Shown: positions 40,338 through 45,694 of the stretch, one piece after another
How the letters are laid out: the number at the start of each line of letters is the position of its first letter
How positions within the stretch are numbered: the first letter of the stretch is position 1
Assembly: GCA_022823185.1 (NCBI GenBank)
Contig: JAJDXQ010000013.1
Coordinates: forward strand, 186,001-250,000
Reading direction: 5' to 3'
DNA from: Caldilineaceae bacterium
GTDB taxonomy: Bacteria; Chloroflexota; Anaerolineae; Caldilineales; Caldilineaceae
Length of the DNA stretch: 64,000 bases
Notes under the pieces: generated by a model
The model's input: the letters and a program-made list of their open reading frames with translations, nothing else
Databases searched by the model: none
What the model was told of the DNA's origin: nothing
Made by a program: the position numbers and the translations under genes

Positions 40338-40380
40338 AATTCTTGGGATTTCAACCGAAATATTAAAAAAATCAAGAATT
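40338..40380. promoter_or_regulatory. Inverted repeat directly upstream of the 40385 promoter
   Basis: AATTCTTG (40338-40345) and CAAGAATT (40373-40380) are exact inverse complements 27 bases apart; pairing extends inward (GGGATTT with AAATC) if two bases are skipped. It ends four bases before the -35 box, a typical place for an activator or repressor site. Confidence 0.5.
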
Positions 40381-40384
40381 GGTA

Positions 40385-40413
40385 TTGACAAATCTAAAAT
40401 TGTGAAGTATTAT
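40385..40413 (+). promoter_or_regulatory. Sigma70-type promoter of the SHOCT/ABC operon
   Basis: TTGACA (40385-40390), 17-base spacer, TATTAT (40408-40413). This is the best consensus match near a gene start in the window. The predicted start of transcription is about 40420, giving a 40-base leader before the ATG at 40463. Confidence 0.8.
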
Positions 40414-40462
40414 CTTGATTATATGTGAATTCCTATTAAGAAAATGCAAATGAGGATGCGAA

Positions 40463-40708
40463 ATGTTCATGGAAAGGATGGCGTTGGAAGAGAAGCTGCG
40501 GAGGGAGTTGCTGACATCGGAGGCGCCGACGTATCAGGGACTTCGGCCTTACCGACCTACGCCGCGCTGGCAGGCGCTGCTGTTCACGCGTATCGGTGAG
40601 TCGCTGGTGGCGTGGGGCGTCGCTCTGCAGCGGCGTTACCGGCGGGCCGAAGCGAAGCTGGTTTTGCCCGCATATTCGAGACATGACGGAATGGAGCGGA
40701 CGCTATGA
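40463..40708 (+). CDS. Small basic protein heading the SHOCT/ABC operon
   Basis: 81 residues, not recognised. The sequence is charged and Arg-rich (ALEEKLRRELLTSEAP, ALQRRYRRAEAKL) with a mildly hydrophobic middle (WQALLFTRIGESLVAWGVAL) that may lie against the membrane. GAGG precedes the ATG; in-frame ATGs at codons 3 and 6 are alternatives. The stop overlaps the start of the DUF2089-type gene (ATGA), so the two are coupled, and the strong promoter lies 50 bases upstream. Position and coupling support a real gene; function unknown. Confidence 0.65.
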   Translation: MFMERMALEEKLRRELLTSEAPTYQGLRPYRPTPRWQALLFTRIGESLVAWGVALQRRYRRAEAKLVLPAYSRHDGMERTL

Positions 40709-41088
40709 ATCCACTACCGACTGCCTGTCCAATCTGTGAGGCCCAAGACCTGACGGTAACAGGCTTTTTCTGCCGTGAGTGTGACACGAAGGTGGAGGGG
40801 CGGTTCCTGGTGGAGACGCCGTTTCGCGGCCTGACGCAAGAGCAGCTGGCGTTCGCGGCCACGTTTATCCGCTGTGAAGGAAAGTTTAACCGGATGGAGG
40901 AGGAGCTGGGCCTCTCGTACCCGACGCTGCGCGGGCGGCTGCATGAGATGATCCGCGCGATGGGCTTTGAGCCTGGTCGTGATGAGCCTGCGCCGCTGCC
41001 GGAGAAGGCGCGGCGGCAGATTCTGGAACAGCTGGAGGCCGGCGAAATCAACTATGAAGCGGCGATGGCGCAGCTGCAAAGCCGATAG
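40705..41088 (+). CDS. DUF2089-type zinc-ribbon/HTH protein
   Basis: 127 residues. An N-terminal zinc ribbon (CPICEAQDL, then FFCREC) is followed by a helix-turn-helix-like segment (LTQEQLAFAATFIRCEGKF; NRMEEELGLSYPTLRGRL), typical of DUF2089 proteins, which are probable DNA-binding regulators. The C-terminus RQILEQLEAGEINYEAAMAQL forms a short helical hairpin resembling the SHOCT-like motif in two other proteins of this operon. It may autoregulate the operon and sense the partner proteins through that hairpin (inference). Confidence 0.85.
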   Translation: MNPLPTACPICEAQDLTVTGFFCRECDTKVEGRFLVETPFRGLTQEQLAFAATFIRCEGKFNRMEEELGLSYPTLRGRLHEMIRAMGFEPGRDEPAPLPEKARRQILEQLEAGEINYEAAMAQLQSR

Positions 41089-41154
41089 GGCTTCCGGCGC
41101 TGAGAACTGGCGAAATGGGCAGGGACAGATGAGAGGCATAGAGAGGGGAACGAA

Positions 41155-42669
41155 ATGAGTGAGTTGATACAGGTGGAGCCGGAAACTCCCGAGCCGCGGG
41201 TTCGGATCCGTTGCGGAGGAGATCTGCGTGTCGAGGGTTGGGACCGGGCGCTGATTGAGGCGGAGGGGGAGCACGGGCCGCCGGTGGTGGAGGCCGGGGA
41301 TGAGCGGATCGAGATCGAAGCTGAATCCGCGTGTACGGTGCGCCTGCCGCTGGCGAGCGCACTGGTCGAGAGCGCGGCGAGAGGACAGGTGAACGTGAGC
41401 AACCTGCAGGGCGGCGTGGCGCTGACGCAGGCCGGCGGCGACCTGCAGGTTGAGAATGTCGGCAGTGTGCGCATCGAGCGCGCGGCGGGCCGGGTGAACC
41501 TGACGAACGTGGCCGGCGGCGTGGATGTGACGGAGCGCGCGCAGGGCGATCTGACGGCCGAGCACATAGGGGGCGGAATCTCAATTGCCGAGGCTGCAGG
41601 ACGGTTGACGCTGCGAAATGTCGCCAGCGTACGCGTAGAACGGGCGCGCGCGGACGTGGACGTGCTGAACGCGGGCGGAAACGCGGTGGTCGAGAGAGCG
41701 GACGGCTCGGTGGAGTTCATCAACGTCGATGGCGCGGCCGCGGTCGGCAAGGCGCGAGGACAGGTCAGCCTGCGCGAGGTGCGGGGCAATGTCGCCTGCG
41801 ACGCGGTGAATGGGTCGTTGCATCTCACGGACGTCGGCGAGGTTGCCGCGAGGCGGGTGATGGGCGATCTCACAGCTGAGAGCGTGCGGGGCGCGCTGGC
41901 CTGCCGGAAAGCGCACGGGGGGGCGACGCTGCGCGAAGTGGGCGGGTCGGTCTCGCTGGGCGGAGTGGGCGGCGACCTCGTCGTAGAGGGATGCGGCGGC
42001 TCGCTTTCGGCCAAGTGCGGCGGCAGTGTTGCGCTGGCGACGATCCGCGGAAATGTCAACGTTACTGCAGGCGGGGATGTGCGGTGCCGTTTGGACGAGA
42101 AGGAAGGGGGTTCCTTCAGGGCGGTCTGCGGTGGAGGGCTCACGGTCGAAGGCGGCGCGACGATGGTCGCGCGCGGTCCGGGCGTGCATACGTTCCGTGC
42201 CGGTGCGGGGAAGAGCAGTTATTCCCTTATCGCCGGGGGCAGCATGCATCTCGAATCCGCCGGCATATTGAAGGGTCTTGGCGAGGAAGAGGGCGTAAGA
42301 GGGGCACGTCACGCGGCGCGCGCGCAACGCCGCGCCTCCCGCTCGCTGGGCAGGACGCTGCGGAGGACGCTGCGGGCGGCGGGAAAGAGGGCGGCGGAAG
42401 GCAATTGGGAGGATGCCAGCAGCTGGTCCTTCAGCTTCGACACGGATGCGCCGGCGCCCAGGTCTGCGGCGAGAGACGAGGAGCCGCTGACCGACTTTGA
42501 GGAAGTGGACGTGAATGTGGAGTTGGACGTCGGGAGCGGGGCGGACGTCGAGCCGGTCTCCGAGGAGGAGCGGATGACGGTTCTGCGCATGTTGTCGGAG
42601 GGCAAAATAACGGCTGACGAGGCGGAACGGTTGTTGGACGCTCTGGGCGGCCAGGAATCAGAACTGTGA
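41155..42669 (+). CDS. Beta-helix (DUF4097-like) protein with C-terminal SHOCT-like domain
   Basis: 504 residues. From about 10 to 380 it consists of short repeated strands with Gly/Asn/Asp turns (GGDLQVENVGSVRIERAAG, GRVNLTNVAGGVDVTERA style), the pattern of a right-handed beta-helix as in DUF4097/YvlB-like proteins. A basic stretch rich in Arg (about 380-420) and an acidic linker follow. The C-terminal hairpin EERMTVLRMLSEGKITADEA-ERLLDALGG is the SHOCT-like motif. No signal peptide or membrane span, so cytoplasmic. YvlB-like proteins belong to envelope-stress operons in Firmicutes; a similar role here is inference. GAGAGGGGA precedes the ATG. Confidence 0.85.
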   Translation: MSELIQVEPETPEPRVRIRCGGDLRVEGWDRALIEAEGEHGPPVVEAGDERIEIEAESACTVRLPLASALVESAARGQVNVSNLQGGVALTQAGGDLQVENVGSVRIERAAGRVNLTNVAGGVDVTERAQGDLTAEHIGGGISIAEAAGRLTLRNVASVRVERARADVDVLNAGGNAVVERADGSVEFINVDGAAAVGKARGQVSLREVRGNVACDAVNGSLHLTDVGEVAARRVMGDLTAESVRGALACRKAHGGATLREVGGSVSLGGVGGDLVVEGCGGSLSAKCGGSVALATIRGNVNVTAGGDVRCRLDEKEGGSFRAVCGGGLTVEGGATMVARGPGVHTFRAGAGKSSYSLIAGGSMHLESAGILKGLGEEEGVRGARHAARAQRRASRSLGRTLRRTLRAAGKRAAEGNWEDASSWSFSFDTDAPAPRSAARDEEPLTDFEEVDVNVELDVGSGADVEPVSEEERMTVLRMLSEGKITADEAERLLDALGGQESEL

Positions 42670-42714
42670 GCCTGGTCGCGGCGCGACCACACACTTTGCG
42701 ATTGGAGGAGCAAG

Positions 42715-43173
42715 ATGGACAGTGACAGTCGGGATGAAGGCAGCCAACTTCCGGCCCGCTCGCGGCCGGCCATTGAGGTCCGCAGCGACGGCGCAATTGG
42801 GGAGGCGTGGGATGGGGGCCAGGCGGCGCTGCCGCAGGTCGTAAGCCAAGTCCGGGATGGTAGCCGCCAGCCGTACGGCACATTCTTGCGCCGTGTGTTC
42901 TTTTTCTGGCTGCGCGTTTATGTATGTGAAGTCTATACGAACGGTAAATCGAAAGCGGTGAATGTGCGCATCCCAATCCCGTTACCTTTGATCGGCGCAT
43001 TCTTTCAGTCCAAGTTAAGCTGGTCGCAGGCGTTTCAGTTTATCGAGCGGAGTGGCCGCGCGCAGGGGATTCCTCCGGAACGATTTCTGGAATCGTGTAT
43101 GGCGCTGGAGTTCGTGCGCGTGTACGAGGACAAGGAAGAGAAAGAAGAGCTGGTGGTGGTCGGACTGGATTGA
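42715..43173 (+). CDS. Partner-domain protein of the SHOCT operon
   Basis: 152 residues. After a low-complexity head (about 1-50), the domain LRVYVCEVYTNGKSKAVNVRIPIPLPLIG is recognisably the same as LRLRVSDTRSGKTRVNLTLPIGLV in the protein at 45308, and both end in an acidic strand (EEKEELVVVGLD; EEELVEIFVE). Here the N-terminal SHOCT-like hairpin is missing. GGAG precedes the ATG. It may supply the partner domain separately to the beta-helix protein, which has the hairpin but lacks this domain (inference). Confidence 0.75.
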   Translation: MDSDSRDEGSQLPARSRPAIEVRSDGAIGEAWDGGQAALPQVVSQVRDGSRQPYGTFLRRVFFFWLRVYVCEVYTNGKSKAVNVRIPIPLPLIGAFFQSKLSWSQAFQFIERSGRAQGIPPERFLESCMALEFVRVYEDKEEKEELVVVGLD

Positions 43174-43187
43174 ATTGGAAACCGGTG

Positions 43188-44201
43188 ATGAAAACAGCGA
43201 TTGAAATCGAATCTCTGAGCAAGATATTCCGCAGCCGGGGTGGCAATGACGTCGAGGCCGTGAGCCGGTTGAACCTGACGTTGGAGGCTGGGCAGGTGTT
43301 CGGCTTCCTGGGCTCAAATGGAGCCGGCAAGACCACGACGATCAAGATGGCCTGCGGGCTGGTGCAGCCGACGACGGGCACGGTTCGGCTGAACGGGTAC
43401 GACGTGCTGAGGCAGCGGGGCCAGGCGATGCGGCAGATCGGCGCAGTGTTGGAGGGGACGCGCAACGTCTACTGGCGCATGAACGCATGGCAGAACCTGC
43501 TCTACTTTGGCCGGATAAAAGGAATCTCGTCGAGCGGATTGCTGAAGGCGAGAGCGGAACAGCTGTTGCGGGAGCTGGACCTTTGGGAGCGGCGCAAGGA
43601 CCCGGTGGGCGAATTCAGCCGGGGCATGCAGCAGAAGGTGGCGATCGCGGCTGCCCTGATCGCGGACCCGCCGATCGTGCTGCTGGACGAGCCGACGTTG
43701 GGGTTGGACGTACACGCGTCGCGCACGGTTCAGGAGTGGATCGTTCAGCTGGCAAAGGAGCGGGGCAAGACGGTTGTGCTGACGACGCATCAGCTGGACA
43801 TGGCCGAAAATCTCTGCGACCAGGTTGCGATCATGAGCCATGGACGGCTGCTGGCCCACCGCCCCACCGCAGAGCTGCTGGACCTGTTCCGGCGGGAGTT
43901 CTATCAGGTGCGGCTGCGGGGCGTGGTTGATACGGAGAAGAACGGCGTTTTCCCCGGCTTCGCGGCCAGCCAGGAGAACGGGCACACGATCCTTTCCGGC
44001 GAGGTTGGCGACGACATGTCGGTGTTCGACCTGGTGGAGCGGGCGCGGACCGCGGGTATGGACCTGATCAGCGTCTCGCCCGGTGAGCCGAATCTGGAGG
44101 AGATATTTGTCGAACTGATCGAGCGGGCGGAGGAGACGGTTGGGCAGGACGGCGGATTGGTAACGGGACGCGGGGAACAGGCCCGCCGGCATCAGGAGTA
44201 G
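43188..44201 (+). CDS. ABC-2 exporter ATPase
   Basis: 338 residues from ATG 43188; the longer open frame overlaps the preceding gene in another frame. Walker A GSNGAGKTTT, signature FSRGMQQKVAIAAAL, Walker B IVLLDEPTLGLD, switch TTHQLD; a C-terminal extension of about 100 residues precedes the usual EEIFVELIE. The F/Y-S-x-GM signature is typical of drug, lipid and sodium exporters (DrrA/NatA type). It pairs with the permease 11 bases downstream. Within the SHOCT operon it parallels envelope-stress ABC exporters; cargo unknown. Confidence 0.92.
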   Translation: MKTAIEIESLSKIFRSRGGNDVEAVSRLNLTLEAGQVFGFLGSNGAGKTTTIKMACGLVQPTTGTVRLNGYDVLRQRGQAMRQIGAVLEGTRNVYWRMNAWQNLLYFGRIKGISSSGLLKARAEQLLRELDLWERRKDPVGEFSRGMQQKVAIAAALIADPPIVLLDEPTLGLDVHASRTVQEWIVQLAKERGKTVVLTTHQLDMAENLCDQVAIMSHGRLLAHRPTAELLDLFRREFYQVRLRGVVDTEKNGVFPGFAASQENGHTILSGEVGDDMSVFDLVERARTAGMDLISVSPGEPNLEEIFVELIERAEETVGQDGGLVTGRGEQARRHQE

Positions 44202-44212
44202 AGGGTAAGGCA

Positions 44213-45001
44213 ATGATGGTGACGGGAACGGTTTTGCTGAACGAATGCCAGAAGCGACTGATCATCATGTGGTCGTACAGGTTCAATTTCATGCTCGAGA
44301 CATTCATGATCGGATTCCTGTTCGTCGGAATCAGTTTTTTCGTATCGGGCGGCAGGCCCACGCCTGAGCAGATGGCGCCGGCGCTGTTGGGATACCTGAC
44401 CTGGTTTTACGCGGTGTTCGCGATTTCGGATATGAGTCAGGGGATCCGGGAGGAGACCCAGACGGGAACGCTGGAGCAGATGTACATGAGCCCGCTGCCG
44501 TCGGGTCTTCTGCTGGCAGGGCGCTCGGTGGCGTCACTGTTCATCAGCACCGGCATGGTTGCCCTGGTTGGCGGGATCCTGATGCTGGCGCTGGGGATCC
44601 GGATTCCGGTGCGGCTGGCCGGTGTGCCGGTCTTTGCCCTGACACTGGCGGGGCTGTACGGCTTCGCCTTTTTCATGGGCGGGGCCACGTTGGTATTCAA
44701 GCAGGTGAATGCGCTGGGCAATCTGCTCACGAATATGCTGTTGTTCCTGAACGGCTCCTTTCTGACGGTCGAACGCATGCCGGGCTGGCTGGAAGGGTTT
44801 GCCCGCAGCCTGCCCTCGACGCAGGGAATCGACGTATTGCGCCGGGTTGTGTTGGACAATCTGTCCCTGGCCAGCGTGTGGCAGGACGGAAGCCTGATGT
44901 GGCTGACGGTGCATACGGCTTTCTTTCTTTTGGCCGGGTGGGGCGCGTTCCTGTGGGGAGAGCGGGTTGCCCGAAAGCGGGGTATGCTGGGGCAGTATTA
45001 G
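44213..45001 (+). CDS. ABC-2 exporter permease
   Basis: 262 residues with six predicted membrane spans (FMIGFLFVGISFFV near 30-45 to FFLLAGWGAFLWGE near 240-255). The ABC2_membrane-type motif IREETQTGTLEQMYMSPLP matches the conserved E-x-GT-x-E-x-x-x-x-x-P of the family. Two adjacent ATGs (44213, 44216) are possible starts. It forms an exporter with the ATPase just upstream. Cargo cannot be predicted. Confidence 0.9.
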   Translation: MMVTGTVLLNECQKRLIIMWSYRFNFMLETFMIGFLFVGISFFVSGGRPTPEQMAPALLGYLTWFYAVFAISDMSQGIREETQTGTLEQMYMSPLPSGLLLAGRSVASLFISTGMVALVGGILMLALGIRIPVRLAGVPVFALTLAGLYGFAFFMGGATLVFKQVNALGNLLTNMLLFLNGSFLTVERMPGWLEGFARSLPSTQGIDVLRRVVLDNLSLASVWQDGSLMWLTVHTAFFLLAGWGAFLWGERVARKRGMLGQY

Positions 45002-45307
45002 GCGGAACTGCAGGGAAACTTCTGGGGAACTGCGGGAAAGGACAGGGGACTGCGGGAGTTAGAGGACTTTGGGTGCGCCATGGCTTTTTGATTTCGTGGG
45101 CCTGGTGGGTTGACGGGAGGGGGGCGTTGCGGGGGGAATCCCCCCGCGCAAGGGAGGGCCGAAGGCCCGACCGCCCAGAGCGGCCAAGGGCATCTTTCCG
45201 CGGGGAGAGGAGGTTGGCGTCGCGAGGAGAGAAGCGGATGCGCCCGTCTCGTTCAGGACCGGGAACTGACCAAGGTTGGGTTTTTGCGATTTGGGGAAGA
45301 GGTTGAT
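45002..45307. other. Structured intergenic region, 306 bases
   Basis: No gene is seen. It holds a perfect stem GCGGGGGG-AAT-CCCCCCGC (45129-45147) and, a little further, GGGCC-GAA-GGCCC, both without T-runs. It is purine-rich near its end, with several GAGG/GGAG runs before the SHOCT gene start. It could be a REP-like element or an intra-operon processing site. Confidence 0.5.
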
Positions 45308-45694
45308 ATGGCAACAGCGGAAGAGCGAATGCGGGTCTTGAAGATGATCGAAGAAGGAAAGATCTCCGCGCAGGAGGGCGCGCGCCTGCTGGAGGCGCTG
45401 GGCCAAAGACACGAACGAGCCCGCCGCCAGCGGGGGACGGGAGAAGCGGGCGGAGAGGGAAGGGGACGCTGGTTGCGTCTGCGTGTATCAGATACAAGGA
45501 GCGGCAAAACGCGGGTCAATCTGACGCTCCCGATTGGGCTGGTCAACATGGGTTTGGCGGTGGGGGCGCGGTTTGTGCCGGACGTGGCTGAACTGGACGT
45601 AGAGGAGATTCGCGACGCGCTGCGATCCGGGCTCAATGGGAAGATCCTGGAGGTCCGCGATGAAGAGGAGCTGGTTGAGATATTTGTGGAGTAG
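45308..45694 (+). CDS. SHOCT-like domain protein with partner domain
   Basis: 128 residues from ATG 45308, with GAGG 5 bases upstream. Residues 5-32 are the SHOCT-like hairpin EERMRVLKMIEEGKISAQEG-ARLLEALGQ, nearly the same as the C-terminus of the beta-helix protein. A basic linker (ERARRQRGTGEAGG) leads to the domain WLRLRVSDTRSGKTRVNL through EELVEIFVE, shared with the protein at 42715. It is the only member carrying both modules, so it could bridge the others. It is 306 bases after the exporter permease on the same strand and may have its own promoter. Confidence 0.82.
   Translation: MATAEERMRVLKMIEEGKISAQEGARLLEALGQRHERARRQRGTGEAGGEGRGRWLRLRVSDTRSGKTRVNLTLPIGLVNMGLAVGARFVPDVAELDVEEIRDALRSGLNGKILEVRDEEELVEIFVE

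Follow-up and report, generated by a model that had tools for sequence, protein, structure and literature searches.

The operon at 40463-45694 in the window, the whole 64,000-nucleotide stretch of DNA analyzed here, belongs to a conserved type found across the phylum Chloroflexota. Its core is a DUF2089 gene and a gene whose product joins a SHOCT-like hairpin to an unnamed domain; a Toastrack gene whose product ends in a SHOCT-like hairpin usually accompanies them. The conservation of this core across Chloroflexota is new here. By analogy, its most likely function is that of a stress-responsive exporter operon, because of published parallels among Toastrack/SHOCT-like proteins, LiaX, and bacteriocin clusters that contain DUF2089. 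Seven open reading frames follow the promoter on the forward strand, one more than the six that a preliminary description of this DNA had counted. The first, P0001, overlaps the DUF2089 gene P0002 by ATGA and is conserved under purifying selection (dN/dS 0.13-0.43). Between P0006 and P0007 lies a dispersed repeat with at least 40 matches across the window's own genome.

Features of the operon and its promoter (positions in the window)
Feature	Start	End	Strand	Description
Sigma-70-type promoter, TTGACA-N17-TATTAT	40385	40413	+	-35 at 40385-40390, 17 bp, -10 at 40408-40413
CTTGATTATAT block	40414	40424	+	Directly after the -10; largely conserved among 13 relatives
P0001	40463	40708	+	Small protein of 81 aa, function unknown; no TM segment, no Pfam match
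P0002	40705	41088	+	DUF2089 regulator: zinc ribbon (residues 8-36), HTH (43-89), C-terminal SHOCT-like hairpin (103-122)
P0003	41155	42669	+	Toastrack/DUF4097-like beta-helix protein; C-terminal SHOCT-like hairpin (471-500); no TM segment
P0004	42715	43173	+	Stand-alone copy of the unnamed domain common to P0007; no Pfam match
P0005	43188	44201	+	ABC ATPase, DrrA-like; PF00005, 3.2e-30
P0006	44213	45001	+	ABC-2 type permease, DrrB-like; PF01061, 6.2e-12; hydrophobic segments
Dispersed GC-rich repeat, ~60 bp	45118	45180	.	Gap between P0006 and P0007
P0007	45308	45694	+	SHOCT-like bihelix (4-40) and unnamed beta-beta-alpha-alpha-alpha-beta-beta domain (55-127)

The preliminary description had staked its proposal on co-occurrence of these genes in related genomes, and this was clearly found, phylum-wide and on one Bacillota plasmid. 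A scan for the P0007 family gave 80 loci, titled as Chloroflexota lineages or as uncultured bacterium. In 70 of the 80, a DUF2089 gene accompanies the P0007-type gene, and a Toastrack gene joins the two in 59. GNAT genes occur in 43 of these loci, and an ABC or MFS gene lies within the fetched locus in 39, a figure that takes in possible bystanders. Among 19 loci from other lineages of the phylum, drawn by their P0007-family matches, 17 have DUF2089 (two do not) and 13 have Toastrack, and exporter genes are absent from many of the operons. The P0007 family itself is present in 163 of 400 Chloroflexota genomes. One misplaced region, L144, was excluded from the analysis. On a plasmid of Paraclostridium bifermentans (Bacillota; L152, 4565-5702), genes for DUF2089, a SHOCT-like protein with the domain, and a domain-only protein stand in a row, the last with a weak match to the unnamed domain. 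Since the domain occurs there beside DUF2089 both alone and with a SHOCT-like head, the domain spans more than one phylum. Within the genus, the genes downstream to about 52 kb are syntenic too, so conservation at that level says little and the cross-family evidence bears the weight.

Zinc ribbon and HTH of P0002 are well recognized, with matches to PF09862 (2e-19) and PF22747 (8.4e-7) above cut-off, and the CxxC..CxxC pattern is kept in 70 of the 72 DUF2089 sequences compared. One DUF2089 protein, from a small single-contig genome (L127, 7683-8057), lacks the cysteines of the zinc ribbon; its gene lies next to a P0007-type gene and one for a small hydrophobic protein. The window's own genome has a second DUF2089 gene on contig C6 (L043, 6356-7602), followed by one whose SHOCT-like product has repeated 'MRIHGVTPEF' units. 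P0003 scores 22.6 bits against Toastrack (DUF4097, PF13349), slightly below the Pfam cut-off of 22.9, and a related protein from L126 lies above it.

The hairpin noticed earlier in P0002, P0003, and P0007 is real and homologous, though already known: it is catalogued as Pfam PF22746, SHOCT-like_DUF2089-C, and is to that extent not undescribed. Against the curated cut-off of 27 bits, P0007 (47.5 bits, 1.1e-12) and P0003 (37 bits, 2.3e-9) match clearly, and the C terminus of P0002 matches weakly as a single sequence (16.2 bits, 0.0079, below cut-off). We then compared family profiles, with the DUF2089 C termini picked by position. They match the P0007 hairpin at an E value of 1.1e-12, far beyond the 0.025-0.48 of 40 column-shuffled controls, so the likeness is not due to chance. 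A Toastrack C-terminal set was gathered with the P0007 hairpin model itself and, being circular, was not used as evidence. In the whole genome, PF22746 has five matches at E values up to 0.1, all inside the two DUF2089 loci.

What the hairpins do may be read in more than one way. The accessible part of a 2024 study proposes that SHOCT-like/Toastrack proteins assemble or anchor sub-membrane signaling complexes, and predicts membrane anchoring for SHOCT-like hairpins (PMC11237479). The hairpins might therefore hold each protein at the inner leaflet, with co-localization rather than pairing coupling the parts. We regard this as a serious possibility, though we would not favor it. It would agree with the one experiment found on this point, a 2013 paper in which a canonical SHOCT domain was tested for oligomerization and self-association was not supported (PMC3581485). 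However, sister operons encode a P0007-type version with two segments of transmembrane strength between hairpin and domain, and these membrane-bound proteins retain a hairpin even though they would need no extra anchor; moreover, the soluble proteins of the window have no hydrophobic segment of that strength. The two-segment versions place the module at the membrane in the species of the sister operons, and by extension it may be there in the window's organism.

P0004 and P0007 share a second motif, W-LR-V..GK..VN..IP, and the earlier observation to this effect held up in a profile comparison. The first strand pair aligns with an hhalign E value of 9.3e-8, where the lowest value from 100 shuffles was 0.0095; beyond that pair, the two agree only in the order of predicted strands and helices. 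The AlphaFold model of P0007, of fair confidence (pLDDT 79), gives a bihelix followed by ββαααββ, and the P0004 model, poor at pLDDT 39 and used solely for the order of predicted elements, repeats that order. No Pfam family covers the domain. For P0007, PDB sequence matches to the family are weak, and among PDB folds the domain has no Foldseek match under an E value of 0.001, and VIA gives it no row above Z 4, which does not establish a new fold. This unnamed domain is a new lead.

A second lead is the cassette-like exchange of P0004 between relatives. In L045, P0002, P0003, P0005, P0006, and P0007 are 94-98% identical to those of the window, whereas P0004 (5430-5966 in L045) is 59% identical. 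In L030, the same operon as obtained from a genome search, DNA identity drops from about 95% to 60-77% over roughly 42600-43200, the region of P0004 (8159-8617 in L030), and then recovers. The core genes group the window with L044 and L045, and the P0004 tree sets L045 elsewhere. In AU tests, P0004 rejected the core grouping (p=6e-7) and the core genes rejected the P0004 grouping (p=2e-5), values that are optimistic because the groups were chosen after the first trees had been seen. The simplest reading of these alignments and trees is that P0004 is swapped by single-gene recombination. Differential loss of paralogues is possible as a source of the conflict; the class survey gave one P0004 match per P0004-bearing genome.

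The TTGACA-N17-TATTAT promoter was confirmed, with 11 of 12 consensus matches. Across 13 Caldilineaceae relatives, its -35 and -10 boxes and the distance between them hardly vary, and the flanks diverge. The inverted repeat reported beside it is present (AATCAAGA at 40370-40377, TCTTGATT at 40413-40420), but its left arm is not conserved in the relatives, leaving it unsupported as an operator, and as a conserved operator we rejected it. The CTTGATTATAT block could be the initially transcribed region or a regulator site. The extended promoter pattern has a single match in the window's own genome, and a genome-wide regulon was rejected on that basis. Across the phylum, TTGACA lies upstream of 39 of 55 DUF2089 operons, with 8.1 expected. 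K-mer enrichment upstream of DUF2089 operons consists chiefly of this -35 box, plus a weaker AATATCAA signal found upstream of 11 of the 55 (1.1 expected; for example, L062, L102, and L091), which may be a regulator site.

Near-consensus -35 and -10 elements, which the genus shares with most of the other operons examined, would also fit steady expression for membrane upkeep and export, with DUF2089 acting elsewhere or mainly repressing its own gene rather than serving as this operon's stress sensor. The lack of a conserved inverted repeat points the same way, but DUF2089 keeps the same partners phylum-wide and on the Bacillota plasmid, and we think this explanation rather unlikely.

The exporter varies among operons: it is of the ABC-2 or MFS kind, often with an acetyltransferase (GNAT). 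P0005 and P0006 score below the curated DrrA and DrrB cut-offs (242 versus 312 bits for TIGR01188; 20.6 versus 223 bits for TIGR01247). A DrrAB-like or MFS exporter and a GNAT gene in many operons, together with DUF2089 in bacteriocin clusters, could suggest a module for drug efflux or self-protection in which these two are central and the SHOCT/Toastrack proteins accessory. This is improbable: in several lineages DUF2089, the P0007 type, and Toastrack persist without a recognized exporter nearby, and there are no biosynthetic genes among the recognized genes of the operon. Searches with defense-system models returned only generic ATPase matches. As for chance grouping or plain vertical synteny, the synteny within the genus would fit, but this gene set recurs in other families and lineages of Chloroflexota and in Bacillota, which contradicts it, and we practically discount it.

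Our preferred reading is a Lia/Psp-like operon for envelope stress or antimicrobial response, regulated by DUF2089, with a SHOCT-like scaffold and an exporter as output, to which we would assign about even probability; the link to envelope stress is drawn by analogy to LiaX/YvlB. We suggest that DUF2089 binds the strong sigma-70-type promoter, or DNA close to it, and regulates the operon. The SHOCT-tailed Toastrack protein P0003 and the SHOCT-headed P0007 would form scaffold and adaptor at the membrane's inner face, and the SHOCT-like hairpins would recruit DUF2089 to this complex, by pairing or through a common membrane or protein partner. Disturbance of the membrane, or exporter activity, would then change transcription. 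The output would be the exporter (ABC-2 in this operon, in other lineages MFS), frequently accompanied by an acetyltransferase, and P0004 would be an accessory component that varies and may contribute specificity.

Counting for this Lia/Psp-like reading are the co-occurrence, the hairpin homology, the confinement of SHOCT-like matches to the genome's two DUF2089 loci, the SHOCT-plus-domain proteins with two transmembrane segments, the enrichment of TTGACA, and the published analogues. Against it count several observations. PspA (PF04012) had no match in the window's own genome, which is 99% complete, and positive controls matched. PspC (PF04024) is not in the operon, and the genome's match is solely on contig C23. 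The near-consensus promoter could mean constitutive expression, a canonical SHOCT domain did not self-associate in the one published test (PMC3581485), two of the 19 sampled loci have no DUF2089, and many operons have no exporter.

A bolder proposal, which we hold to be unlikely, is a distinct form of membrane-to-gene signaling without a two-component system: a scaffold beneath the membrane would hold or release a zinc-ribbon HTH regulator by means of matching SHOCT-like hairpins, and P0004, made of the new domain that the adaptor P0007 also has, would be an exchangeable part for specificity. Should our interpretation of the operon be right, the widespread but uncharacterized DUF2089 and SHOCT-like proteins would gain a function open to testing, and Chloroflexota a possible envelope-stress system; no PspA was found in the window's own genome.

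Compared with known systems, P0005 and P0006 resemble DrrAB-type ABC-2 exporters in pairing an ATPase with an ABC-2 permease in adjoining genes, and differ in being linked to SHOCT-like proteins and DUF2089. The leaderless bacteriocin clusters of bawcin and enterocin DD14 also combine DUF2089 with ABC exporter genes (PMC10707071, PMC7332713); unlike these, the operon has no recognized bacteriocin gene, HlyD, or PH-domain proteins. Like LiaX of Enterococcus (lia) and YvlB of Bacillus subtilis (yvl), it combines a SHOCT-like hairpin with Toastrack, as those proteins do in envelope-stress operons (domain make-up partly after the available part of PMC11237479). LiaX and Toastrack-PspC proteins have been tied to membrane-active antimicrobials (PMC11601895, PMC10269926, PMC12791056). 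P0007 matches the NCBIfam LiaX model weakly; unlike LiaX and YvlB, P0003 has its hairpin at the C terminus, and the operon contains no LiaFSR or PspC gene. The closest parallel is the four-gene DUF2089-Toastrack context of Ravi et al. 2024 (PMC11237479), so that this context, called undescribed in the preliminary description, had in fact been published, as the available part of that article makes clear. The accessible text does not mention the domain of P0004 and P0007, the exporter and GNAT variants, or a Chloroflexota-wide operon, and its own variants involve LiaI-LiaF-TM, B-box, or PspC. As in the operon described here, DUF2089 appears in that text as a ZnR-HTH-SHOCT-like protein encoded with a Toastrack gene, and its authors likewise propose membrane-linked signaling to transcription.
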